64,000 nucleotides of DNA, from positions 2,728,001 to 2,792,000 of the forward strand of contig NZ_CP024047.1 in NCBI RefSeq assembly GCF_003430825.1, in the 5' to 3' direction. A program made the translations under genes and the position numbers. This document shows positions 14,222-27,683 of the stretch, piece after piece (the first letter of the stretch is position 1; each line of letters starts with the position of its first letter). This stretch comes from Natrarchaeobaculum sulfurireducens (GTDB lineage: Archaea > Halobacteriota > Halobacteria > Halobacteriales > Natrialbaceae). A model generated the notes under the pieces. It searched no databases, was not told the DNA's origin, and saw only the letters and a list, made by a program, of their open reading frames with translations.

Positions 14222-14356
14222 GTTGTATGCTAACTATAATCACAACACGACTTAACCGTTACGCTCGAGTTCGTTCTGGCCGGTTCCAGCAGCCACGTAT
14301 GAACGGCGGCGAGACGTCACATTGATACACCGAGCGTTCGTTCATACGACGTGACA

Positions 14357-15370
14357 ATGCCGCCTCTCCCTGTCGCGTCCGGGAGTACGTCGCCTGTCGG
14401 CCTCGAGTCCGCTATTGCACCGGTACTCGCCCCGGCGATGGTGAACTCCCCGCTGCTGGACGCACTCGCCTGGGTCGCGATCGCGGGTTTTTTCGGTGCC
14501 GTCGTCTTCCAGTGGCGAGGTGGGACCGACCTCGCCCGGCAACTCGCCGCCGGATCGTGGCTCGTCTTCGGCCTCTTCTGGCTCACGATGGTGCCGTACT
14601 ACTACCTCGACGCCCAGAGCCCGATCCAGACCGTGCTCGCGCTGGCTGCTCTCCCGCTGTGTGTCTACACCGGCTACCTCCTGTATTCAGGCCGTGAGTC
14701 GTTGTTGTTGCTCTCGAAGGCCGTCGCCATCATGGGACTGATCTACCTCCCCGCAGAGACGATCCCGTTCGTCCGCCAGTGGCTGATCGAGACGACTGCG
14801 ATGCAGGCACACTTCGTGATGGACCTGCTAGGACACGCCCCCGGACTGAGCGAGGGCGCAAACGGCTACCAGAGCCGGTTCGACTTCGATCCCGACGAGA
14901 CGGTCACCGGTCGAACGACCTACATCGTCCTCGCCTGTACTGGACTCGGGAGCATGGCGATCTTCGGCGGGCTCATCGCCTCCGTCTCCGCACCGCTGAA
15001 ACGCAAACTCTCCGCGTTCGCGCTCGCGATCGGTGTCATCTGGTTTCTCAACCTCCTGCGCAACGTCTTCATCGCGCTCGCCTCGCCGTACGGCTGGTTC
15101 CAATTCGACTGGCTCGTCTCGTTTATGACCACCTACATGGGCGCACAGCCGGATCGTGTCTCCTTCCTCGTTGCACACAACTACGTCGCCCAGTCGCTGT
15201 CGGTCGTCGCGCTCGTCGGGATTACCTTCCTCGTGGTCAGAATCCTCCCCGAAGTGCTCGCACCGCTCGAGGAGGTGCTGTTCGTTCTGAGCGGCACCGA
15301 GTACGACCTCTTCGAGGCGTTGGGCCACGAGGAGGCTCGCCCCGACGCCACCGGCGACCGCGAGCAGTGA
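14357..15370 (+). CDS. artA: Archaeosortase A
   Basis: 337 residues from the ATG at 14357 (a GTG two codons upstream is possible), with about eight membrane helices. The exosortase/archaeosortase catalytic layout is visible: Cys in YIVLACTGLGSMAIFGG, Arg in FLNLLRNVFIALASPYGW, and the third site around DRVSFLVAHNYVAQS. ArtA cleaves the PGF-CTERM tail of S-layer and other surface proteins and attaches an archaeal lipid at the membrane. Its stop overlaps the GTG start of the metallophosphoesterase (GTGA), so they are co-translated. Confidence 0.93.
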   Translation: MPPLPVASGSTSPVGLESAIAPVLAPAMVNSPLLDALAWVAIAGFFGAVVFQWRGGTDLARQLAAGSWLVFGLFWLTMVPYYYLDAQSPIQTVLALAALPLCVYTGYLLYSGRESLLLLSKAVAIMGLIYLPAETIPFVRQWLIETTAMQAHFVMDLLGHAPGLSEGANGYQSRFDFDPDETVTGRTTYIVLACTGLGSMAIFGGLIASVSAPLKRKLSAFALAIGVIWFLNLLRNVFIALASPYGWFQFDWLVSFMTTYMGAQPDRVSFLVAHNYVAQSLSVVALVGITFLVVRILPEVLAPLEEVLFVLSGTEYDLFEALGHEEARPDATGDREQ

Positions 15371-16158: not shown

Positions 16159-17454
16159 CTACCGTGCCGACGCGTCCTCGAGAACCGCTCCGGCCGCCTG
16201 CCTGCCGCTCTCCATCGCCCCCTGAATCGACGACCAGCGTGTGTAATCGCCCGCGAGGTAGATCCGCCCCTCGGGATCACGGACGTCCGGCAGCCCGTCG
16301 TGGGCGCCAGGTGGCTGATCGAACTGGGCGAACGGGATGCGTTCGGTGTGGAGAGACTCGAAGCCGCCGAAGAGCCGTTCGGGAAACCACGACTCGAGCG
16401 TCTCGCGGGTTCGCTCGGCCAGTTGCTCGTCGCTCTCCTCGCGCTCGCCGAGGTACGTCGCGCTGAGCAACGTCGCGTCGTCGGGCGCGTACTCGGGGGC
16501 AACGGCGCTGTGTGGGACGACCTGGTTCGGTCCACCGCCGGGACCTGCGTCACTAGCGTTCAATACGAGTCGCTTGCCCGTCTCGAGGTCGGCGTCGCCG
16601 GGCAGTCGATAGTACTGGGTGACACAGCTCCGCCCAGTCGTCGGAATCGACTCAACGCCAGTCAGTTCGCGAGCCGTTGGCGGATCGGTCGCGACGATGA
16701 CGGCGTCGGCCGCCAGCGTCTCGTTGGTCGTCCACACCGTCACGCCCCCGTCGCCGTCGGACTCGACCGCTTCGACCGCTCGATCGGTCTCGAGCGTCGC
16801 GCCCGAGTCACGGGCATACCTGGCGAGTTGGATCGGAATCGCTTCCATACCCGCCGCGGGAACCACGGTGTCGCCGGCGGCAAGTGTTTGGAACGTGTAC
16901 TCGAAGACCCGTTTCGAGGTCGAAAGCGTACGATCGAGACAGATTCCGCCGTAAAACGGTGCGGCGAAGTTATCGATGAACCGCTCGGAGAACCCCCGGT
17001 CGCGCAGGAACGCCTCGATCGTCCCGTCCGGCCCGTCGAATATCTCGTCGGGATCGACTCGAGCGAGATCAACACGCAAGCGCGCGACGCGGAGTTTGTC
17101 GCCGAAGGAGACGTCGCGATTGAACAGCGTCGCCGGCAACGCTCGCGGATCGCGAACGGGATCGGCGAGCGTCGACCGGTGACCCGGCCGGGCAAGGATC
17201 GCCCCCGGCGCGAACCGACGGAGGTCGAGCGCCTCGAGGTCGAGCTCTCGCTTTACGGCCGGATACGCGGTGAACAGTACCTGAAAGCCGCGGTCGAATC
17301 GGTAGCCGTCGCGCTCGAGCGTCCGGACGCGGCCACCGACCGTCTCCTCGCGTTCGAGCAGCGTGACGTCGACGCCGCCGGCAGCGAGATGACGAGCCGC
17401 GACGAGGCCCGCCAGTCCACCACCGACCACGACGACGTGGGGTGTCGAAGTCAT
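16159..17454 (-). CDS. FAD-dependent amine oxidase/phytoene-desaturase-like protein
   Basis: 431 residues. VVVVGGGLAGLVAARHLA at residues 7-24 is the dinucleotide-binding GxGxxG, followed by LLEREETVGGRVRT, the GGR motif of the amine-oxidase/protoporphyrinogen-oxidase superfamily. C-terminal IYLAGDYTRWSSIQGAMESGRQAA is the second FAD-binding block. Substrate not determinable. Haloarchaea use such enzymes in carotenoid metabolism, but no crt genes flank it. It is divergent from the first poly-gamma-glutamate hydrolase gene. Confidence 0.85.
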   Translation of the reverse strand: MTSTPHVVVVGGGLAGLVAARHLAAGGVDVTLLEREETVGGRVRTLERDGYRFDRGFQVLFTAYPAVKRELDLEALDLRRFAPGAILARPGHRSTLADPVRDPRALPATLFNRDVSFGDKLRVARLRVDLARVDPDEIFDGPDGTIEAFLRDRGFSERFIDNFAAPFYGGICLDRTLSTSKRVFEYTFQTLAAGDTVVPAAGMEAIPIQLARYARDSGATLETDRAVEAVESDGDGGVTVWTTNETLAADAVIVATDPPTARELTGVESIPTTGRSCVTQYYRLPGDADLETGKRLVLNASDAGPGGGPNQVVPHSAVAPEYAPDDATLLSATYLGEREESDEQLAERTRETLESWFPERLFGGFESLHTERIPFAQFDQPPGAHDGLPDVRDPEGRIYLAGDYTRWSSIQGAMESGRQAAGAVLEDASAR

Positions 17455-17576
17455 GCGATTTAGTTAGCAATCCGGACGTAAAGCTCTGGACCCAACGGCG
17501 GGATCCGGTTCGACCGTCTGCAGGCGAATATATACTAAACGTATTTCAACGGATAGTCTGTACCAATTGCCGTTGG

Positions 17577-18653
17577 ATGAACGAAAACCGCCCCTCCCCG
17601 AAGCGATCGCCGAACTCGACGTCCTCCACCAAGCGACGGCAGTTTCTCCGCTCCGGCCTGACGATAACCGGCGTCGGAGCTACAGCACTCGGCACCCGTG
17701 CGGTAGTCGCCAGCAACGACTCCGACGACGACCTTCCCGACCAGATTCAGGCGGTCGAACGAAGTGACTGTGACGACGTGACGTTCTGGGAGCTACCGGC
17801 AAGCGAAGCACGCGACGGCTGGAGCACTCCCTCGGCGTCCGAGCGCTACTGTTCGGTCCCGTGTGAACTGCTCGAGTCGACCGACCTCGAGGTCGGCCAC
17901 CAGCTCCGGATCGACGCCGAAAACGGCAGCAATGGGTTCGACAGCGCAGTCTACACCGTCGCCTCGGAACACGACGACGGCGAGCTTCGGCTGACCGACG
18001 ACGGCCTCGAGCGGATCGGTGTGAGCGCCGACGGATCGGTGACAGTTACGCAACTGGCCGTCCACTCAACCTACGAGACGCGACAGCAGGGGCGGCTCAA
18101 CGACGAGTACGTCGAGTACCTCGTGGGTGAGCCGAGCGACGCCACCGTTCTCGCACTCGCCCCACACGGCGGATACATCGAGTACGGAACGGACTTCCAG
18201 GCCGAACGCGTCGCCGAAACGGTTGACGGCGTTGGGTGGATCTGCTCGGGGTTCAACAACAGTGGCGGTGCGCTCAGTCGGTGGCACGTCCACTCGACGG
18301 ACATCCATCCGGCCTCGTTTCCAAAGCTCGAGAAGACTCGAGCCCACGAGTTCGACTGGTCCGTCGCGTTCCACGGGTATACGAGCGAGACGATTCTCGT
18401 CGGCGGCACTGCGAGCGAGACAGACCGCGAACGCGTCGTCGACGAACTCGAGACGGCACTTCCCGACACACCGGTCGAACTCGCGAGCAGCGACGCCTCC
18501 GACTACGCGGGTGCGTCCCCCGAGAACGTACTCAACCAGGCCGGCTCGATCGGGCAGACGATCCAGCTCGAACAACCCACTGACATCCGCCAAAAGGAAT
18601 GGGCGGTGGTCGCCGACGCCGTGGCCAGCGCACTCGAGGACCTGACGGAATAG
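17577..18653 (+). CDS. Secreted poly-gamma-glutamate hydrolase-family protein (intact motifs)
   Basis: 358 residues. A Tat signal KRRQFLRSGLTITG spans about residues 19-32. The core has the zinc-peptidase motifs of the phage PghP/YmaC family: APHGGYIEYGT (HGG 197-199, Glu 202), WHVHSTDIHP (236-245), VAFHGY (FHG 265-267) and IQLEQ. The family cleaves poly-gamma-glutamate. It is convergent with the pgsC-pgsB-hydrolase operon and presumably trims or recycles the extracellular polymer. An AT-rich TATA-like stretch lies around 17528-17537. The frame is open upstream to 17442, but the ATG at 17577 starts the signal peptide. Confidence 0.85.
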   Translation: MNENRPSPKRSPNSTSSTKRRQFLRSGLTITGVGATALGTRAVVASNDSDDDLPDQIQAVERSDCDDVTFWELPASEARDGWSTPSASERYCSVPCELLESTDLEVGHQLRIDAENGSNGFDSAVYTVASEHDDGELRLTDDGLERIGVSADGSVTVTQLAVHSTYETRQQGRLNDEYVEYLVGEPSDATVLALAPHGGYIEYGTDFQAERVAETVDGVGWICSGFNNSGGALSRWHVHSTDIHPASFPKLEKTRAHEFDWSVAFHGYTSETILVGGTASETDRERVVDELETALPDTPVELASSDASDYAGASPENVLNQAGSIGQTIQLEQPTDIRQKEWAVVADAVASALEDLTE

Positions 18654-18755
18654 CGCCGGTAGATCGCCGTTACCGGCAAACCGGTTCGACGTCGCGACGA
18701 GCGGCTCGTGCTCGATACTGTGACACAGCCAGTATCGGTGCTGCCGAGTGGCACC

Positions 18756-18762
18756 AAAAAAA
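18756..18762 (-). terminator. T7 run downstream of the PGA operon
   Basis: Seven A on the plus strand, hence seven T on the minus transcript, about 76 bases after the stop of the second hydrolase gene. Poly-T runs terminate archaeal transcription. No strong stem is needed or visible. Confidence 0.35.
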
Positions 18763-18837
18763 CGGACCGCGGTCGATCATCGTCGCGATACGCCGCGAGT
18801 TACGTCACCTCGAGTCGTCGTGAGGCGCTCGAAGTAG

Positions 18838-20049
18838 TTACTCGCTGTTTCCGCGTCCGTTCGGTGGCGTCTCCGATGGAGCGTTCCCGCGGTCTTCCGG
18901 TGGCGTCTCAGACGGAGCGTTCCCGCGGTCTTCCGGTGGTGTCTCCGACGGGGCGTTCCCACGGTCACACGGCGGATCCTGTTCCGGCGGTTCGACGTCG
19001 TCCGAGAGCGCGGCAGCGAGGCCGTGTGCGACCTCCTCCCAGTAAGCCCGACGGGAGTCGTAACTCTGTGAGAGATAGATGCTCTCCTCGCCGAGGCGGT
19101 TGACGAGCATGCGGTCGCTCGTGCCGTCGTCCTCGAGTTCGGCCTCGATTGCACAGCGCGGCAACGCGTCGTTGATGGAATCCCGGACGGTCTCGCGCAG
19201 GTCGCGGTCGGCCGTGCCACCGACGAGAACCCCGGCGTCACAGACGCCACTGCAGTCGACCGCGAGATCGTACTCGGTGTCTGCGATCGTCTCGAGTTCG
19301 GGATATGATTCGGGCGAGAGCTCCATCGTCGGGACGTGCCAGCGTCGGAAAGCGTTTCCACCGTCCGGCCCCCAGCCTTTCGTGCGCCAGCACGTCGAAG
19401 CGGTCAGTTCCGCGGCGTATTCGGCCTGATCATCCGTCCAGGGCTGGACGGCCCCGCCGTGGGGGGCAAGGAAGATTCGGTCAGTGCCTCGCTCGTCGAG
19501 TCGCTCGATGAGTTCACCCTGTTCGCGAGCCTGAGACTCGGAGAGATCCGGGTTCGGGATCGTCGTCGAAAGGGTCACCTCGAACTCGTCGTCGGCGAGT
19601 GAACAGTTCTGGTCCGGGCTCGGACACTCCACATCGCCGGGTGCCGGCGGCGTCGCCTCCTCGAGGTCGAGTCGGCAACGCGTGACGTCGGCAGCCCTGA
19701 TGATGTCCGTCGGATCTTCGGGTCGTTCCTCGACGATCGTGTAGGCGGCAAACTCGTCGTCACGTCGCTCGACGCGAACTTGCTGGCCCTCAGAGAGGTC
19801 GTAGGCCGAGAGGAGTCGCGGGTCGGCCGACAGTGCGGTTCTGTCACCCTCGAGCGACGACTGGCCGTCGGCGAGCGGACAGAGCAGTGGCGTCTCGAAA
19901 TCTTCGTCGTCGGTCGTCCGTGCTGCGACCTCGTACGATCCGGCGGCGAGGCCGAGCAGGGCTGGCGTACCGACCGCTGCAGCCAGTGTCGCTCGTCGGG
20001 TCAATGCGGGGGAATCGGCGTGTCCGGTAGTGTCGTTATCGTCTGTCAT
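18838..20049 (-). CDS. Poly-gamma-glutamate hydrolase homologue with degenerate active site
   Basis: 403 residues. Tat-like start LTRRATLAAAVGTPALLG. Same fold as the convergent hydrolase, but catalytic motifs have changed: HGGYIEYGT is here HGGAVQPWT (Glu to Gln 202), WHVHSTDIHP is WHVPTMELSP, AFHG is DCSG (265-268) and IQLEQ is IYLSQ. Several zinc or catalytic positions are thus lost, while VLVGGTADRDLRETV and the overall length are kept. After residue 360 comes a low-complexity tail with three 12-residue repeats DRGNAPSETPPE. It is last in the pgsC-pgsB operon, 88 bases from pgsB. Likely binds polymer rather than cutting it (inference). Confidence 0.85.
   Translation of the reverse strand: MTDDNDTTGHADSPALTRRATLAAAVGTPALLGLAAGSYEVAARTTDDEDFETPLLCPLADGQSSLEGDRTALSADPRLLSAYDLSEGQQVRVERRDDEFAAYTIVEERPEDPTDIIRAADVTRCRLDLEEATPPAPGDVECPSPDQNCSLADDEFEVTLSTTIPNPDLSESQAREQGELIERLDERGTDRIFLAPHGGAVQPWTDDQAEYAAELTASTCWRTKGWGPDGGNAFRRWHVPTMELSPESYPELETIADTEYDLAVDCSGVCDAGVLVGGTADRDLRETVRDSINDALPRCAIEAELEDDGTSDRMLVNRLGEESIYLSQSYDSRRAYWEEVAHGLAAALSDDVEPPEQDPPCDRGNAPSETPPEDRGNAPSETPPEDRGNAPSETPPNGRGNSE
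18863..18970 (-). repeat. Three 36-bp coding tandem repeats
   Basis: Units at 18863-18898, 18899-18934 and 18935-18970, each encoding a 12-residue DRGNAPSETPPE-type block at the C-terminus of the degenerate hydrolase homologue. The copies differ at only a few bases. The amino-acid repeat is hydrophilic and likely a flexible cell-wall or polymer-facing spacer. Confidence 0.9.
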
Positions 20050-20137
20050 TTGGAGGTCTGTGTACGGGAGCGGTCCGTCTCCCAGCGGTTGGTCGTTCGA
20101 GCGGTTCGTCGGTCGCGCGATGTGGCCACTGGTGTAC

Positions 20138-21370
20138 TCACTGCTGTATCACCTGTGGCGGCTGTTGCGGCCGATCGTCGGCCGCCGCCGAATTTGCGTT
20201 TGCCTCGAGTTCGCCCGCTGGCTCGGTGGCGTGGCGTTCGATCTCGTCGTCGAGGTCGCGCATGAACTCGGCGACGGTGTTCCCCATCACGAGTACCGGC
20301 CACCCGTCGTCGATCGACGCCTCGAGGACGTCGACCGCCGGTTCGGTCGCCGCGTCGTGGCAGATCACGGGAAAAGAGGATTTCTCCGCAAACAGCTCGG
20401 TATGGCTGCCGGCGACGCGGGCCTGCTCGATGGCGCCGCGATCGTAGAGGTCCTCGAGATACTCCTGAAACGACGCCGTTCGGGCCCGCCGGTCGCGTCG
20501 GAGGTAGACGAACGGTTGGATTTGCTCGCCGTCGTCGACGAGCGATCGTCGGACCATCTCGGTGCTCTCGACGTCGTTGACGTCGGCGGCGTTGTAGACA
20601 CGGCCGTCGAGGGCGTGAACCCACTCGACGCGCAACGAATCGAGCATCGACTCACGGAGGTGATCGGAAAGCGGAGCTTCGCCGATCTCTTCGAGCACGC
20701 AGTCGATGGCGTAGACGCACTCGGCGCCCGGCACGTCGCTGTGTCGGTCGGGGACGTCGACGTGCGTGATCGTCGCGCCGATCTCCTCGAGTTCGCGCTC
20801 GAGGTACGAGCATAGCTGTGGATCCTGCTCACCGCTTACGACGTGAGTATCGGGCGGGGTGGCTCGTGCGAATGCGCGTGCGATCTTCGCGCGACTCCCG
20901 CCGAGGGTGTCACGGTGATCCTGTCTGACGTTCGTGACGACGAGAACGTCGGGCTGGCCGAACGCCTCGTTCATCATCCGCGTCGTATAGTCAGTGATAC
21001 CCTGGTTTTCGAGGATCAGCGCTTCTGCGTCGGCGTACTTGCGTAGCTCACGGACGTTCTCGTAGAGCGTCACGCGGTCGCCGCGGTCGATGGGGTTTTC
21101 TTCCCCATCGTACAGCGACAGGGGATGATTGCCCGTGACCTTCGCGTAGGCGTCGTACTCGCGAGCACAGAGGATCTCGTACAGCCGTTCGGTCGTCCCG
21201 GACTTGCCTCGAGTTCCGGAGACGACGATCTTGACGTCGATATCCTCGAGTCTCTGACGGTGATTGATGCCGCGGGTGAACGACGAGACGAGGTGTCGTC
21301 CGACCTGCGTGAGCGATCGGGGGAGGTTCGTGACCGGTTTGCGGAGGGTCGTGGGGGATAGGTCTGGCAT
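20138..21370 (-). CDS. pgsB: Poly-gamma-glutamate synthase subunit PgsB/CapB
   Basis: 410 residues. Mur-ligase-type ATP-binding loop VVSGTRGKSGTTERLYE at residues 49-65, then AKVTGNHPLSLYDGEE, ALILENQGITDYT, VLVVTNVRQDHRDTLG and VHALDGRVYNAADVNDVEST. This order is that of CapB/PgsB, the ATP-dependent amide ligase that polymerises glutamate through the gamma-carboxyl, not of folylpolyglutamate synthase. The flanking CapC gene confirms it. The C-terminal 30 residues are a haloarchaeal acidic/Gln-rich addition. 111 bases separate it from pgsC upstream. Confidence 0.9.
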   Translation of the reverse strand: MPDLSPTTLRKPVTNLPRSLTQVGRHLVSSFTRGINHRQRLEDIDVKIVVSGTRGKSGTTERLYEILCAREYDAYAKVTGNHPLSLYDGEENPIDRGDRVTLYENVRELRKYADAEALILENQGITDYTTRMMNEAFGQPDVLVVTNVRQDHRDTLGGSRAKIARAFARATPPDTHVVSGEQDPQLCSYLERELEEIGATITHVDVPDRHSDVPGAECVYAIDCVLEEIGEAPLSDHLRESMLDSLRVEWVHALDGRVYNAADVNDVESTEMVRRSLVDDGEQIQPFVYLRRDRRARTASFQEYLEDLYDRGAIEQARVAGSHTELFAEKSSFPVICHDAATEPAVDVLEASIDDGWPVLVMGNTVAEFMRDLDDEIERHATEPAGELEANANSAAADDRPQQPPQVIQQ

Positions 21371-21481
21371 ACTGTCTCAGCTCTGGGGGGAGCTGTCGGC
21401 GTCTGCCGCGGTCGACGGCGCTACACAGTGCAGCGGCTCGTCGACGTGGGGCGTCCTGTGGGGAGGGCTCGTGGGCGGGCG

Positions 21482-22654
21482 TTAGGTGTGACCGCTACTG
21501 GCCTGGGGTCGTCGGTCTCGGTCGGCGGGACGGAGTCGCTCGAGTCGAAGGGCCGTGTGTCCACCGGCGACGATGGCGGCTCCCAGCAATGTGAGTTGGA
21601 GGGGAAGCCGCGTCACGAGCAGTCCGTCGGGTCCGGGCGAAAGCGCAAGCCGGAGTCCGATGGCGAAGATCGCGAACGCACCGGCGGAGAGGCTGATCGA
21701 CGTCAGGCGATGTCCTGGCGGCATCCGGTGGAGGTTGTACGCACCGACGCCGATGAGGATGGCCGTAAAGAACACGTGAAGCGCGGAGGTGACCGGCACG
21801 AACATCGCGATGGGGACGGCCCCCACGACTGCGATGACGAGTCCGGTCGAGAGCAACACGCGGCCATACAGCAGCGTCGTGCGGTGGAGTAGCGTCAGCA
21901 GGGAGTAGACGACGGCGATTCCGGCAACGTACAGCGGAACGATCGCCGCCGACTGGAGTGCGAACAGGGCGAGTAACGGGAGCGCGATGATCCCGTTGAG
22001 CCTGATTCCCCACCGACCGTAGACTCCCTCCGAGACGATCATGCCGAGGACGATCACCGCGAGGATCAACCCGAGCGACGCGTCGACGAAGAGGGCGTCC
22101 TCTCCACCGATCGTTGCGTCTCGAGCGATCGCGATGTCCGCCCGTTCGCCGTACAGCAACGGCGGCGTGAATCGTCCGAGGGAGGGTGCCAGCGTGAGGT
22201 TCACGAGACTGGCACCGAGCGCGACGAGCCCCACGAGGGCTCCACTGCTCACCAGCACGTCCTCACGACGACGGTCGGAATCGAGCTGGTGGTAGTTGTA
22301 CGCGGCGACACCCGGTAAGATGGTCCCGACGAAGGTAAACGACGAGAGCGTTATACCGGGAACGCCGACAGCAGCGAGCCCTCCGAACACAGCAAGCGGG
22401 GCGGCCATGCTGATCGCCATACTCGCAAGGAGCAACTGGCGGCCGAACAGCAAGGTCCGCTGCTGGAGCATCGAAAGGCCGACGTACGCGGCGACAGTGC
22501 CGAGCACGAACACCGGCAGCGCGAGGAAGTCGTACAACACGTACACCGCGAACAGCGGCACGACGAGGACTCCGGACAGCCGGAGAGCGTACGATTGTAC
22601 GAGCGCAATCCCCAGTAGCAAGCCTATCACGGTGAGCGTCGCGGCGACGATCAT
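21482..22654 (-). CDS. pgsC: Tandem-fused PgsC/CapC membrane protein
   Basis: 390 residues; bacterial CapC is about 150. Two homologous halves are visible, near residues 15-155 and 205-345. Each has a Tyr-rich start (SYALRLSGVLVVPLFAVYVL versus GRWGIRLNGIIALPLLALF), then LLFGRQLLLAS versus LLYGRVLLST, then a GVxAYNxHx block (GVAAYNYHQLDSDRR versus GVGAYNLHRMPPGHR). About 10-12 membrane helices. CapC is the membrane partner of CapB in poly-gamma-glutamate synthesis and export. It is first gene of the minus-strand operon pgsC-pgsB-hydrolase homologue. No capA is present in the window. Confidence 0.85.
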   Translation of the reverse strand: MIVAATLTVIGLLLGIALVQSYALRLSGVLVVPLFAVYVLYDFLALPVFVLGTVAAYVGLSMLQQRTLLFGRQLLLASMAISMAAPLAVFGGLAAVGVPGITLSSFTFVGTILPGVAAYNYHQLDSDRRREDVLVSSGALVGLVALGASLVNLTLAPSLGRFTPPLLYGERADIAIARDATIGGEDALFVDASLGLILAVIVLGMIVSEGVYGRWGIRLNGIIALPLLALFALQSAAIVPLYVAGIAVVYSLLTLLHRTTLLYGRVLLSTGLVIAVVGAVPIAMFVPVTSALHVFFTAILIGVGAYNLHRMPPGHRLTSISLSAGAFAIFAIGLRLALSPGPDGLLVTRLPLQLTLLGAAIVAGGHTALRLERLRPADRDRRPQASSGHT

Positions 22655-23286
22655 CGTGGTACGTATGTCCCATCACCGATTCGGCGGAGACGGTAACCTG
22701 ACTCGAGTGACACGCTTGGCGTGGACGAAGACGGGGATGGAAGGCGGAGATCCCGGTGACTCGATTGACTTGCCGCTGGCGGGCGGCTGCTCGATGCTGG
22801 AGGGCTCATAGTTACAGCCAAAACAGCAATGCTTGATAAAGCTTTCTTCATTGTATTTTAACCTTTTGGCCGCTGTCTGAAACATTTTCACCGATAACGA
22901 CTACTGGAAAGAAGAGTGAGTGGCGCACAGCGATTACCAATGCGAACCGTATTTCTTTCTGTTGTTCGGGTGGACAAACGATCATTTCTTATCCGATGTG
23001 TGATAAACAATCCCGTAGAACGTCTCGAAATGATTTTCCTTTTGAATGTTCACCAGAGCATCAGTAACCGCTGAGTACACTGGCCGCGACACAGAACCAC
23101 GATCAAAGCATGCGTGATGATGCCAGCACACTCCCGAAGCAGCAGCTTCCCTCCGAAGAGCAGGACGTAACTGGAGGTGGTAGACGTAAGACCGAAGTCG
23201 TCCGCCGGATTATGCGTGCCACTCCACGTCGACACCACCGGAGATGAGGCCGGGACACACAGCCCTGGACGGCTGGCTCGAGCGCC
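22655..23286. other. AT-rich 630-base interval upstream of the PGA operon
   Basis: Noticeably lower GC than neighbours, especially 22810-23060. It must hold the promoter of the pgsC operon, but I cannot fix a TATA box. A 45-codon plus-strand frame at 23110-23247 (MRDDASTLPKQQ..., basic C-terminus) is open but has mixed codon use, so I do not call it. No tRNA or IS end recognised. Confidence 0.4.
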
Positions 23287-23421
23287 CTAGAGATCCGTAA
23301 CGAACCGGAGCACCAGCCCGAGTGCGATCACGAGTATACCTGAGACGGTAGCGATCGGTGGAATCGGGACGAACAGGAGGACGATACCGGCGAGGATCAC
23401 GATCGTCGAGAGTCGGACCAT
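23287..23421 (-). CDS. 44-residue two-helix membrane protein
   Basis: MVRLSTIVILAGIVLLFVP, then IPPIATVSGILVIALGLVLRFVTDL: two hydrophobic segments around a Pro-rich turn. Small proteins of this design are common in haloarchaea and usually annotated as hypothetical transporter-like. It is GC-rich at third positions, unlike the AT-rich gap beside it, which supports real coding. Confidence 0.6.
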   Translation of the reverse strand: MVRLSTIVILAGIVLLFVPIPPIATVSGILVIALGLVLRFVTDL

Positions 23422-23546
23422 GGTCGGGCTTCAACCGGGAAGGACGTAGGGATGTGGCCGGCATTACTCGCCCAGCGGGAGCGACGACGGCCGTGTCCGA
23501 TCGCCGCCTCGAGAACCTATAACTGAGTGTTACCCGTATTTACGGT

Positions 23547-24338
23547 ATGGTCGATGCGACAGTCACCCCAATCGAGCGCGGGACGATCACGACCGACGTC
23601 AACAACATCCTCGAGGGAGCCGTCCAGGCCTCGGCGGGCAAACCGAACCCCGAGTTCGAACTGGCCGAGGGGCCGGTCTACAATCTCGTGATCGACCACC
23701 CCGAGGCGACGATTCTCTGGGATACCGGCTCTCACCCGGAGGCCGACGCGGGACACTGGCCCGCACCGCTGTACGACGCCTTCGAGCACACCGGCCTGCG
23801 GCCGCTCGAGGACGATCTCGCCGACGCGGGCTACGACGTCGCCGACATCGACCGCGTGATCCAGACTCACCTCCACCTCGACCACGCGGGCGGGCTGTAC
23901 GCCTTCGACGGGACCGACGTTCCGATCACCGTCCACGAGCGCGAGCTCAAATACGCCTACTACAGCGCCAAGACCGACGCCGGCAGCGACGCCTACATCG
24001 CCGACGACTTCGATCTCGATCTGCAGTGGGAGATCGTCCACAGCGACCGCGAGCCCCTTCTCGAGGGCGTCGACCTCCTGCACCTGCCCGGACACACCCC
24101 AGGGCTGCTCGGCGTGCAGCTCGAACTCGACGAACACGGGACCATCGTTCTCGCGGGCGACCTCGCCTATTCGCGGCCGAACTACGACGACGAACATCCC
24201 ATGGGCGGCGGCCTGCTGTGGAGCAAGCGCCACTGGATCGACAGCGTCCGCCGGGTGAAAGCGGTCGAGCGACGCCGCGACGCCGACGTCTTCTGCGGAC
24301 ACGACGCCAGCGACCTCGAGCGGCTCCAGGAGCTGTAG
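23547..24338 (+). CDS. MBL-fold hydrolase, N-acyl homoserine lactonase-like
   Basis: 263 residues. The metal motif THLHLDHAGG (HxHxDH) lies at about residues 111-120; further ligands are in LHLPGHTPGL, LAGDLAY and FCGHD near the end. N-terminal YNLVIDHPEATILWDTGSHP is the layout of AttM/AiiA-type lactonases. The family opens lactone rings or related esters. True substrate here unknown. The start MVDATVTPIERG at 23547 follows an AT-rich stretch. Confidence 0.85.
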   Translation: MVDATVTPIERGTITTDVNNILEGAVQASAGKPNPEFELAEGPVYNLVIDHPEATILWDTGSHPEADAGHWPAPLYDAFEHTGLRPLEDDLADAGYDVADIDRVIQTHLHLDHAGGLYAFDGTDVPITVHERELKYAYYSAKTDAGSDAYIADDFDLDLQWEIVHSDREPLLEGVDLLHLPGHTPGLLGVQLELDEHGTIVLAGDLAYSRPNYDDEHPMGGGLLWSKRHWIDSVRRVKAVERRRDADVFCGHDASDLERLQEL

Positions 24339-24410
24339 CCGTCGCCCGCGACGTTCCGTGTGGACTGCCGCGGCCGGTACGACTTTTACTGTCCCGAAAG
24401 CCCAGAAGAC

Positions 24411-24866
24411 ATGGCCGACACAGATCCAGATGCGGACCTCGATCCGGCGTTCCAGACGGTTTTCGAGAACCGCGTGCGATTCGCCGAAACGGACCTGCAG
24501 GGGGTCGTCTTCTACGGCGAATACTTCACCTACCAGGACGAGGCCGTCACGGCGTTCTTCCGCGAAATCGGGTACAGCTACGACCGGATGGTCGAGGCGG
24601 GCTGGCAGGTCCACGTCGTCAGCGCCTCGCTCGACTACCGCGACGGTGCCGAATTCGACGACCGACTCCGCAATCGCATCCGCGTGAGCGACGTCGGAAC
24701 CTCGAGTCTCACCTTCGAACACCGGATCGAACGCGAGGACGGGAGCCTCGTCGCCGAGGGCACCGTCACCCACGTCGCCGTCGACCTCGAGACCGAAGCG
24801 CCGACGCCGCTTCCAGACGACTTCCTCGAGGCCATCGCCACGTACCAGGGCGGCCTGCCCGAGTGA
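24411..24866 (+). CDS. Acyl-CoA thioesterase (hotdog, 4-HBT/YbgC type)
   Basis: 151 residues. VRFAETDLQGVVFYGEYFTYQDEA carries the 4-hydroxybenzoyl-CoA thioesterase motif with the catalytic acid region; VVSASLDYRDGAEFDDRLRNRIRV and LVAEGTVTHVAVD are typical later strands. It hydrolyses acyl-CoA thioesters; substrate not evident. It follows the lactonase-like gene by 72 bases on the same strand and precedes an SDR gene. Confidence 0.85.
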   Translation: MADTDPDADLDPAFQTVFENRVRFAETDLQGVVFYGEYFTYQDEAVTAFFREIGYSYDRMVEAGWQVHVVSASLDYRDGAEFDDRLRNRIRVSDVGTSSLTFEHRIEREDGSLVAEGTVTHVAVDLETEAPTPLPDDFLEAIATYQGGLPE

Positions 24867-24948
24867 GCCCGTCGCTGCGGCTCGAGCGTCGTCGGCGAGT
24901 CGACGACGCCGTCTGCACAGGACGGGGGTGGACCGCCGAAGACGGAAG

Positions 24949-24957
24949 CTTTAGCTA
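24949..24957 (+). promoter_or_regulatory. TATA-like box before the SDR gene
   Basis: CTTTAGCTA at 24949-24957, about 29-37 bases before the ATG at 24986. Consistent with a leaderless promoter. Confidence 0.4.
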
Positions 24958-24985
24958 CTATCCGCTTGTATAACCCAATTATATC

Positions 24986-25717
24986 ATGAGAGTACTCGTC
25001 ACGGGCGCGAGCCGGGGAATCGGCCGGGCGATCGCACTGACCCTCGCCGGCGACCACGACGTCGCAGTCGGCTATCGAACGGCAGCCGACGCGGCTGCCG
25101 ACGTGGTCGACGAAGTCAGAGAACAGGGCAGCAACACGGTCGCCGTGGGCGCCGACGTCCGCGATTCCGCGGCCGTCGAATCGATGATCAGTGAGGTCGT
25201 CGACGAATTCGGCGGGCTCGACGCCGTCGTCAACAACGCGGGCATCGTCGAGCCGGATCTCGCGACCGACATCGACGACGACCAATGGAGCCGGGTCCTC
25301 GAGACGAACCTCACTGGGGCGTTTTACGTGACACGGGCCGCGATTCCACATCTCGAGCCCGACGGCGACGTGGTGTTCGTCTCCAGTATCGGAGGGACCG
25401 GCGGGACGGTCGACGCCAGCTACGCGGCGAGCAAAGCGGCGCTCCACGGGTTGACGCGGTCGCTGGCGCGGGAGTACGGTGACAGCGGGCTCCAGGTCAA
25501 CGCCGTCGCTCCCGGTCCCGTCGACACCGAGATGAACGACACGATCCTCGAGTTCCTCGAGCGAGTCGAGTTCCGGGGCCACGGCAACCTCGATACACAC
25601 CTTCCCGAGTACGCCTGTCAGCCCGACGCCGTCGCTCACACGGTCGCGTATTTGCTGGAAAACGAGTACGTACAGGGCGAAATCGTCAACGTCAACGGCG
25701 GGATGCAGTTTCAGTAG
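24986..25717 (+). CDS. SDR-family oxidoreductase (FabG-like)
   Basis: 243 residues. MRVLVTGASRGIGRAIALT has the TGxxxGxG cofactor loop at residues 6-13; NNAGIVEPD, FVSSIGGTGGTVDASYAASKAALHG (catalytic S-Y-K), and PGPVDTEMND follow. Standard 3-oxoacyl-ACP/CoA reductase-type SDR. Cofactor preference not determined. Proximity to an acyl-CoA thioesterase is compatible with acyl metabolism. Confidence 0.9.
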   Translation: MRVLVTGASRGIGRAIALTLAGDHDVAVGYRTAADAAADVVDEVREQGSNTVAVGADVRDSAAVESMISEVVDEFGGLDAVVNNAGIVEPDLATDIDDDQWSRVLETNLTGAFYVTRAAIPHLEPDGDVVFVSSIGGTGGTVDASYAASKAALHGLTRSLAREYGDSGLQVNAVAPGPVDTEMNDTILEFLERVEFRGHGNLDTHLPEYACQPDAVAHTVAYLLENEYVQGEIVNVNGGMQFQ

Positions 25718-26225
25718 CCGGTCACTGTGCTAGCCCGTTGACTCCACTCCGTATCGTGTCTACCCGAACGACACCCACCGTATCGTGCCTGGCTGTGCGA
25801 CTCCCATCGTATCGTGGCTCCCCGAACGAACGGTCTGGACCAGTTGGTCTCCGGCGAGACGACCGATTCAGAGAGGCCGCCCGGAGACAGCACTCGTGCC
25901 GGCACCGGTGAGTACCCACGGCCTCCCCAGCCGATTCGTTCACTCGCGTCGCTCGTTCACTCATCCCTCGCGCGGCGTCGACGGCGCGCTCTCGAGCCCT
26001 CGAGCGCGCCGTCAGCGCGCGCCAGCGGTGGAGCGTCGGCAGCACGCGATAGTGGTCGGGTGTCGGCAGCACGCGACAGCGGTTGTGGAGACCGTGGCCG
26101 GCCGATTGACATGGCGGGTGCGTCGACTCGAGCGGTCCCACACTCGACACAGCGAGTCACGGTGAACCGGCACGTCGGGCAGAACCCGGGTGAGAAAACA
26201 GAGCGAGGGACACCAAAACCGACGC
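25718..26225. other. 508-base non-coding interval with short repeats
   Basis: Between the SDR gene and the stop of livF. It holds the 29-bp triplicate and a second pair of 15-base words GTCGGCAGCACGCGA at 26035-26049 and 26062-26076 (27-base spacing). A CTCGAGCCCTCGAGCGCGCC-type palindromic patch lies near 25991-26010. Open frames here are Arg/Ser-rich shadows. No gene recognised. Confidence 0.5.
25745..25831. repeat. Three imperfect 29-bp tandem repeats
   Basis: The word GTATCGTG recurs at 25751, 25780 and 25809, exactly 29 bases apart. Units 1 and 3 also share a downstream CCCGAACGA. No spacers, so not a CRISPR. It lies directly after the SDR gene. Confidence 0.7.
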
Positions 26226-26951
26226 TCAGTGGATTCCGATGTACGCTTCCTGGATGTAGTCGTTATCCTGGAACTCGTCGGCCGGCCCCGCGAGTTCGAT
26301 CTCGCCGGTCTCGAGCAGGGCCAGGCGTTCGGCGTGGCGAAGCGCGAACGTCGAGTTCTGTTCGGCGAGCAAGATCGTGAGCCCTTCGTCCTCGTTCAGC
26401 GTCTCGATGGCGTCGTTGATGTCCTCGATGATGATCGGCGCGAGTCCGAGCGTCGGTTCGTCTAACATGAGGAGGTCGGGGTCGCTCATGAGCGCCCGAC
26501 CGATCGCGAGCATCTGCTGTTCGCCGCCGCTCATCGTCTCGGCTTCCTGCTCGCGGCGTTCGTCCAGTCGCGGGAACAGGTCGTAGACCATCTCGAGGTC
26601 CCGCTTGACGGCCTCGCGGTCGTCGCGGAACTGTGCGCCCATCTGGAGGTTCTCGTGAACCGAGAAGAACGGGAAGAGGTCCCGGTCCTCGGTGCAGTAG
26701 ACGAGGCCGTCGGTGACGATGTCTCGAGGGGAGACGGTCGCGAGGTCGATCCCGTCGTAATGGATGGCCCCTTCGTAGTCGACGAAACCCGCGATGGCGT
26801 TCAGCATGGTCGTTTTGCCGGCCCCGTTCGGGCCGATGACGCCGTAGATTTCGCCGGGCTCGATCGACAGCGAGACGCCTTTCAGGGCGTGGGACTTGCC
26901 GTAGTAGACGTGCAGGTCCTCGATCTCGAGGTGTGGGTCGGAGTCCGCCAT
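26226..26951 (-). CDS. livF: Branched-chain amino acid-type ABC transporter ATPase LivF
   Basis: 241 residues. Walker A GPNGAGKTT (about residues 40-48), signature MSGGEQQMLAIGRAL, Walker B LLMLDEPTLGL, switch His region LLAEQNSTFAL. LivF-type family ATPase pairs with LivG to energise uptake. It begins one base after the livG stop, last in the livKHMGF operon. Confidence 0.92.
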   Translation of the reverse strand: MADSDPHLEIEDLHVYYGKSHALKGVSLSIEPGEIYGVIGPNGAGKTTMLNAIAGFVDYEGAIHYDGIDLATVSPRDIVTDGLVYCTEDRDLFPFFSVHENLQMGAQFRDDREAVKRDLEMVYDLFPRLDERREQEAETMSGGEQQMLAIGRALMSDPDLLMLDEPTLGLAPIIIEDINDAIETLNEDEGLTILLAEQNSTFALRHAERLALLETGEIELAGPADEFQDNDYIQEAYIGIH

Positions 26952-27683
26952 CTACATCGCCTCCGAGCTGCCGAGGTAGGCGCGTCTGACCTGATCGTTC
27001 TCGGCGATCGCCTCGGGATCTCCGGCGGCGATTTTGGTTCCGTTGTGAATCACGACGACGCGGTCGACGAGCCGCATGAGTCCACCCATGTTGTGATCGA
27101 CGACGATCATCGTCATTCCGGCGTCACGAAGCTCCTCGAACTTCTCGACGAGACCGTCGATCTCCTGTTGGTTCATCCCCGCAAACGGCTCGTCGAGCAA
27201 CATCATTTCGGGGTCAGTCGCGAGTGCCTTTGCGACCTCGAGTCGGCGGACATCCGCGTGAGGGAGTTCGTCGGGCTGTTCGTGGAGTTTGTCCTCGAGG
27301 TCGAGTCGGGCGGCGTAGTTGAAAATTTCGTCGTCGCTGGCACCGCCGCGAATCGACGTGACACTGTTGGGGAGGGTGAACAGTTTGATGTTCGCTCCGA
27401 CGGTCATGGCGTCGATCGGGTTCGATTCCTGTGAGACCCGTGCAAGACCGTTTTCGACGACCTCGTGGGTTTTCAGGTCGGTGATCTCGTCGCCGTCGAA
27501 GTGAATCGAGCCGTCGGAGACGGTGTAGCGGCTCATCGTGCAGTTGAACACCGTCGACTTTCCCGAGCCGTTCGGGCCGATCAGGCCGACGATCTCGCCG
27601 CGATCGACCGAAAGCGAGAGGTCGTCGACGGCGACCAGTCCACCGAAGCGTTTCGTCAGTCCATCGAGTTCGAAGAAGCTCAT
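26952..27683 (-). CDS. livG: Branched-chain amino acid-type ABC transporter ATPase LivG
   Basis: 243 residues. Walker A GPNGSGKST, the LivG-type signature LPHADVRRLEVAKAL, Walker B MMLLDEPFAGMNQQEIDGL and VVDHNMGGLMRLVDRVVV. The start overlaps the livM stop by 4 bases, indicating coupled translation. Works with LivF on the cytoplasmic face. Confidence 0.92.
   Translation of the reverse strand: MSFFELDGLTKRFGGLVAVDDLSLSVDRGEIVGLIGPNGSGKSTVFNCTMSRYTVSDGSIHFDGDEITDLKTHEVVENGLARVSQESNPIDAMTVGANIKLFTLPNSVTSIRGGASDDEIFNYAARLDLEDKLHEQPDELPHADVRRLEVAKALATDPEMMLLDEPFAGMNQQEIDGLVEKFEELRDAGMTMIVVDHNMGGLMRLVDRVVVIHNGTKIAAGDPEAIAENDQVRRAYLGSSEAM

Follow-up and report, generated by a model that had tools for sequence, protein, structure and literature searches.

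A candidate archaeal poly-γ-glutamate synthase locus with a conserved catalytically dead hydrolase and no CapA in Natrarchaeobaculum sulfurireducens

How could an archaeon make and export poly-γ-glutamate (PGA) from a locus that encodes a ligase and a membrane subunit of the bacterial type but no CapA? Producers of γ-PGA are already known among archaea. The question is raised by a 64,000-nucleotide stretch of the Natrarchaeobaculum sulfurireducens genome (contig NZ_CP024047.1, positions 2,728,001 to 2,792,000; hereafter, the window), in which capC, capB, and a third gene encoding a hydrolase homologue form one run that faces a convergent, intact hydrolase gene. The safest reading is that this is likely a CapA-less archaeal γ-PGA synthase locus with a conserved pseudo-hydrolase whose role would be polymer binding. 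The distinctive feature of the locus is this conserved, catalytically dead hydrolase. No description of the arrangement was found in the literature searched, which was confined to a limited collection.

Gene content of the locus and the absence of CapA

The open reading frames of capC (pgsC; 21482–22654) and capB (encoding a pgsB-like amide ligase; 20138–21370) were found, adjacent and on the minus strand, at the positions given in an earlier reading made from the sequence only (the sequence-only reading). capC comes first, followed by capB and then by the third gene (18838–20049, minus strand), whose product matches the PghP/PghL hydrolase family PF05908 (29.4 bits); the run of genes thus ends with a hydrolase homologue, as had been proposed. 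The gaps between the three genes are 111 and 88 nt, too short for a 47-codon gene (CapE/PgsE), for which no model search was made. The adjacency of capB and capC had been likened to that in bacterial cap/pgs operons; the genes are indeed neighbours, but their order is capC–capB and not the B–C–A order of Bacillus. When gene order was compared across relatives, capC preceded capB in 96 of the 97 loci with co-directional pairs, and the two genes overlapped by 1–4 nt in 60 of these 97. In some relatives (loci L108, L109, and L110), there is a 4-nt overlap between capB and the third gene, which fits the expectation of an operon. Scans for terminators and promoters gave no signal clearly exceeding chance.

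The best NCBIfam model for CapB was PgsB (TIGR04012; 96 bits, residues 31–200), compared with 29.7 bits for FolC, and CapB carries the Pfam domain Mur_ligase_M (PF08245) with the P-loop GTRGKS. CapB thus does not rank by score as a folylpolyglutamate synthase, an affinity that the sequence-only reading had named as a danger to its proposal. CapB is nearer to PgsB than to FolC and is encoded beside PgsC; its score lies below the TIGR04012 equivalog cut-off of 222.7 bits. Because the other archaeal CapB proteins also score below this cut-off (83–98 bits), the window CapB is assigned, as judged from sequence, to a diverged archaeal branch of PgsB. That CapB and CapC make a product other than exported γ-PGA, for example a short tail of glutamates added to a different molecule, is very unlikely. 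The low score and the restriction of the match to the N-terminal half of CapB would accommodate such a product, but PgsB was the top NCBIfam model for every CapB tested, and the partnership with a membrane subunit and exported PGA hydrolase homologues is conserved. Moreover, Natrialba aegyptiaca is reported to secrete PGA, and Natrialba is the genus named in the close locus L027.

In the CapB tree, which has long branches and is unsure in its details, a long type with an N-terminal extension of ~130 amino acids is separate from a clade whose 47 rows are mostly short CapB proteins. The latter clade holds the window protein, which is of the short archaeal type, along with every pseudo-hydrolase locus and some of the CapA loci. 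Loci with the long CapB include L146, L156, L178, and others, and haloarchaeal examples weakly match DUF1508/HVO_2922. In L122 and L123, a capC–capB pair that lies in the opposite orientation and has the other type of CapB is flanked by an FAD amine oxidase, a thioesterase, and two branched-chain-type ATP-binding cassette ATPases, all of which are also neighbours in the window (16159–27683). This suggests that the window and these two loci share an insertion place.

The absence of CapA/PgsA, first noticed for the window, extends to the whole genome (3.79 Mb, 3 contigs, 99.98% complete), in which the CapA model PF09587 had zero matches. The model works in this lineage, since it matched in 91 of the 125 genomes of the family to which the window belongs (Natrialbaceae). 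capB gave 26 matches in 23 of these 125 genomes, and no capA lay near capB at these family loci. PF09587 was found in 15 of the 23 capB-positive and 76 of the 102 capB-negative genomes (Fisher p 0.44), indicating that CapA does not track capB in the family. On the other hand, 13 of the 98 capB loci, all in other haloarchaeal families, have capA near capB and the fused capC; PF09587 confirmed it in the three of these 13 that were scanned. A general lack of linked capA in haloarchaea was thus ruled out, and the adjacency that the sequence-only reading regarded as damaging exists, but outside the window's family. The missing adjacent CapA therefore characterizes this lineage and the majority of archaeal loci but does not extend to every one of them.

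These counts bear on the possibility that CapA function comes from an unlinked, diverged protein missed by PF09587, which would make this a standard CapBCA system in which one gene has moved away. Other haloarchaea do hold capA beside fused capC and capB, and a calcineurin-type phosphoesterase domain is encoded at about 15.4–16.0 kb of the window. However, the latter matches PF00149 and not PF09587, the CapA model detects its targets in 91 of the 125 family genomes but not here, and 8 of the 23 capB-positive genomes lack CapA, whose presence is unrelated to capB in the family. We consider a displaced CapA quite unlikely.

The locus resembles the PgsBCA system (capBCA) of Bacillus subtilis in that a PgsB-type ligase and a PgsC membrane subunit are encoded together and that a γ-PGA hydrolase gene (pgdS in B. 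subtilis) adjoins the synthase genes (PMC4497714). It differs in its C–B order, its doubled CapC, and the lack of CapA (PF09587), the third component of the PgsBCA complex, and of an Asp/Glu racemase in the genome. In addition, the hydrolase homologues beside it belong to the PghP family and include a dead one, and the window proteins fall below the TIGR04012 and TIGR04011 cut-offs. The haloarchaeal capC–capB–capA loci (for example, L156 and L208) share the fused CapC and the adjacent CapB, but, unlike the window genome, they have an adjacent CapA of ~570–700 amino acids with PF09587 and CarboxypepD_reg domains.

The sequence-only reading stated that known bacterial synthases need CapA. This is disputed: one study obtained no PGA without pgsA, whereas in another pgsBC alone gave B. 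subtilis abundant L-rich PGA, with about 95% L in the polymer (PMC6029982). The product of the window locus should also be L-PGA, judging from the lack of CapA and of any match to the Asp/Glu racemase model PF01177 in the whole genome, from the L-rich polymer of B. subtilis without pgsA, and from the PGA of N. aegyptiaca, which is all-L. A single γ-glutamyltranspeptidase is encoded in the genome, more than 1 Mb from the locus. The locus suggests why the polymer of haloarchaea could consist of L-glutamate only, a point of practical value, and, being naturally devoid of CapA, it allows the disputed requirement for CapA to be tested directly.

The third gene and its convergent intact relative

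In the structure of PghL, H41, E46, and H102 are zinc ligands, and PghP activity suffers when its residues equivalent to H41, E46, H77, H102, and E165 are changed to alanine (PMC6506827). We aligned 25 third-gene proteins with 11 other PF05908 proteins encoded near the loci (PghL numbering is used throughout). The hydrolase-like domain of the window third gene lies at about 19030–19503 (minus strand). H41 and H77 are kept, but three of the five catalytic positions are changed: Q replaces the zinc ligand E46 (residue 202, codon 19444–19446), S replaces the zinc ligand H102 (residue 267, codon 19249–19251), and S replaces the catalytic E165 (residue 327, codon 19069–19071), all with roles according to PMC6506827.

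The loss is general in the third gene. E165 is replaced by S, A, or G in 25/25 third-gene proteins, and E is present in 11/11 other copies. At the E46 position, Q occurs in 19 and E in 6 of the 25; H102 is lost in 15 and kept in 10, H77 is kept in 8, and H41 is kept in 24. All five residues, by contrast, are kept in each of the 11 other copies. The 25 proteins form one clade with a support of 100/100 and thus have a single origin. Less derived members lack only E165 among the five positions, from which it appears that E165 was probably lost first and zinc ligands later. Third-gene proteins share the HGG..E/Q and HG motifs of the PghP/PghL (YndL) zinc hydrolases, but all lack E165 and most have lost zinc ligands. 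For close pairs, the ratio of nonsynonymous to synonymous substitution rates (dN/dS) was 0.09–0.27 for the third gene, 0.10–0.16 for CapB, and 0.26–0.38 for the intact copy. The third gene is therefore under purifying selection and not decaying.

A third gene that remains an enzyme with a remodelled site and different chemistry, such as polymer transfer or anchoring, would fit the retention of H41 in 24/25, the less derived members that keep both histidines and E46 while losing E165, and the invariant cysteines in the close-family alignment. We judge this improbable, however, since the window's clade has lost or changed two zinc ligands and the catalytic Glu, positions at which alanine changes harmed PghP activity (PMC6506827).

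R171, which contacts the polymer in PghL (PMC6506827), is kept in 36/36 proteins (25 third-gene and 11 others; residue 333, codon 19051–19053, minus strand, in the window), and both glycines of HGG are kept in 25/25 third-gene proteins. T79, N151, and T168, by contrast, vary among the aligned proteins. The N-terminus of the third-gene protein carries a twin-arginine translocation (Tat) signal, as judged by eye, predicting export. The window third-gene protein ends in near-identical 12-amino-acid repeats (APSETPPEDRGN; 18841–18966), which are missing from its orthologues. In one Halostagnicola genome (L106/L028), the third gene is apparently frameshifted near its 5′ end.

The convergent gene (17577–18653, plus strand) encodes a γ-PGA hydrolase homologue (PF05908, 60.6 bits) that resembles YndL/PghL (PDB 5onj, E 2e-10). 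H41, E46, H77, H102, and E165 are all present, confirming the description of this copy as intact. It has the two-domain layout of the third-gene protein; an additional N-terminal domain and a Tat-type signal (here again judged by eye) set both apart from PghP/PghL. An intact PF05908 gene was found in 14 of the 16 family genomes with a pseudo-copy versus 28 of the 109 without, counts that ignore relatedness. In the hydrolase tree, the window convergent copy falls in a group whose other members all derive from genomes that also contain a pseudo-copy; a separate group of short copies is mostly from other genomes.

This pairing raises the alternative that the dead copy is not part of the synthase but regulates the intact hydrolase, competing for polymer ends or pairing with the enzyme and so shielding the nascent polymer from being cut too early. 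The co-occurrence in 14/16 genomes, the side-by-side position of both copies in the window, L103, L104, L140, L141, L170, and L174, and their common layout and Tat-type signals speak for it. However, it is the dead copy that is linked to capB, the intact gene lies elsewhere in the genome for most family loci, and in genomes G083 and G102 the dead copy is the only PF05908 match. A regulatory role seems unlikely, though less so than new chemistry.

We lean slightly towards the reading that the window holds an archaeal γ-PGA synthase locus of doubled capC, capB, and pseudo-hydrolase gene, with an intact hydrolase beside it, in which the dead copy binds the exported polymer. CapB, an ATP-dependent ligase of the Mur type, would join L-glutamate via the γ-carboxyl on the cytoplasmic face of CapC, and CapC, with two PgsC units of the same orientation in one chain, would carry the elongating polymer across the membrane. 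The third-gene product would leave the cell in folded form via the Tat route and bind the emerging polymer without cutting it. At the position held by CapA in other loci, it would guide, retain, or shield the polymer. The convergent hydrolase would trim or release the polymer. We propose only tentatively that a degrading enzyme, losing catalysis stepwise, has turned into a structural subunit of the synthase, the exported polymer-binding partner of fused CapC and CapB, and that the locus represents a separate, CapA-independent class of PGA synthase. Where CapA is missing, a pseudo-hydrolase linked to the synthase is a concrete candidate for extracellular polymer handling.

Several points weigh against polymer binding by a synthase partner. 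The PghL substrate contacts T79, N151, and T168 are changed in the third-gene protein, so that binding is not guaranteed. The pseudo-hydrolase co-occurs with CapA in L143, L144, and L174, and hence there is no strict replacement. In 62 of the 98 capB loci, neither a pseudo-hydrolase, nor CapA, nor an intact hydrolase is found near capB; thus no such component is required everywhere, and the pseudo-hydrolase could be an accessory. AlphaFold models of the third-gene protein and CapC, built on 5-sequence alignments, had mean predicted local distance difference test (pLDDT) scores of 30 and 38 and were discarded. A search for some other conserved exported gene in the third position, in loci with neither the pseudo-hydrolase nor CapA, yielded no common family; one group of four was transposase-like.

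The doubled CapC

CapC is a membrane protein of 390 amino acids with two complete units, unlike a single-unit PgsC of ~150 amino acids. PF14102 matched it at 112.7 bits (gathering cut-off 27) in two stretches, at about 22271–22627 and about 21713–22048 (minus strand), in agreement with the earlier description of a CapC doubled in one chain. The R..G, L[FY]GR, and G.AYN.H motifs are present in both halves; in 93 aligned fused CapC proteins, the matching positions are R25..G28/R218..G221, G71-R72/G264-R265, and A118-Y119-N120/A305-Y306..H309. Conserved K/R residues occupy equivalent loops of both halves, which suggests that the halves are same-orientation (parallel) repeats and disfavours inverted repeats.

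PF14102 was found in 79 of the 391 sampled Halobacteria genomes (about a fifth), usually with both units in a single reading frame. The doubled CapC also occurs in a second family of the same phylum, and a single-unit CapC was found in two genomes of a third family. A doubling specific to the window locus was thus ruled out. The C-halves form one clade (SH-aLRT, an approximate likelihood ratio test, 100), and the N-halves are compatible with one clade (approximately unbiased test, p-AU 0.60); a single old duplication and fusion, present in most of the archaeal CapC proteins found, would suffice to explain the data. The doubled CapC and the lack of CapA described in the sequence-only reading are borne out, but the doubling is an ancient fusion and not peculiar to this locus. 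A 2015 survey did not find PgsC in archaea (PMC4497714), and the fused, diverged CapC is likely the part that it missed.

In a few loci (L119, L128–L130, and L145), the two CapC units are encoded as separate genes. Those of L128, L129, and L130 (about 6.0–7.7 kb) have two separate CapC-like genes without CapB, which adjoin genes for an asparagine-synthase-like amidotransferase and Taf fimbria-like proteins. CapC is possibly used there for a purpose other than PGA.

Two further genes lie near the locus in the window. Archaeosortase A (14351–15370; TIGR04125, 323.6 bits) is encoded about 2 kb from the hydrolase gene. A metallo-β-lactamase-fold protein is encoded at 23547–24338, for which the best NCBIfam model is an AhlS-type lactonase, at 145 bits and below its cut-off of 475.

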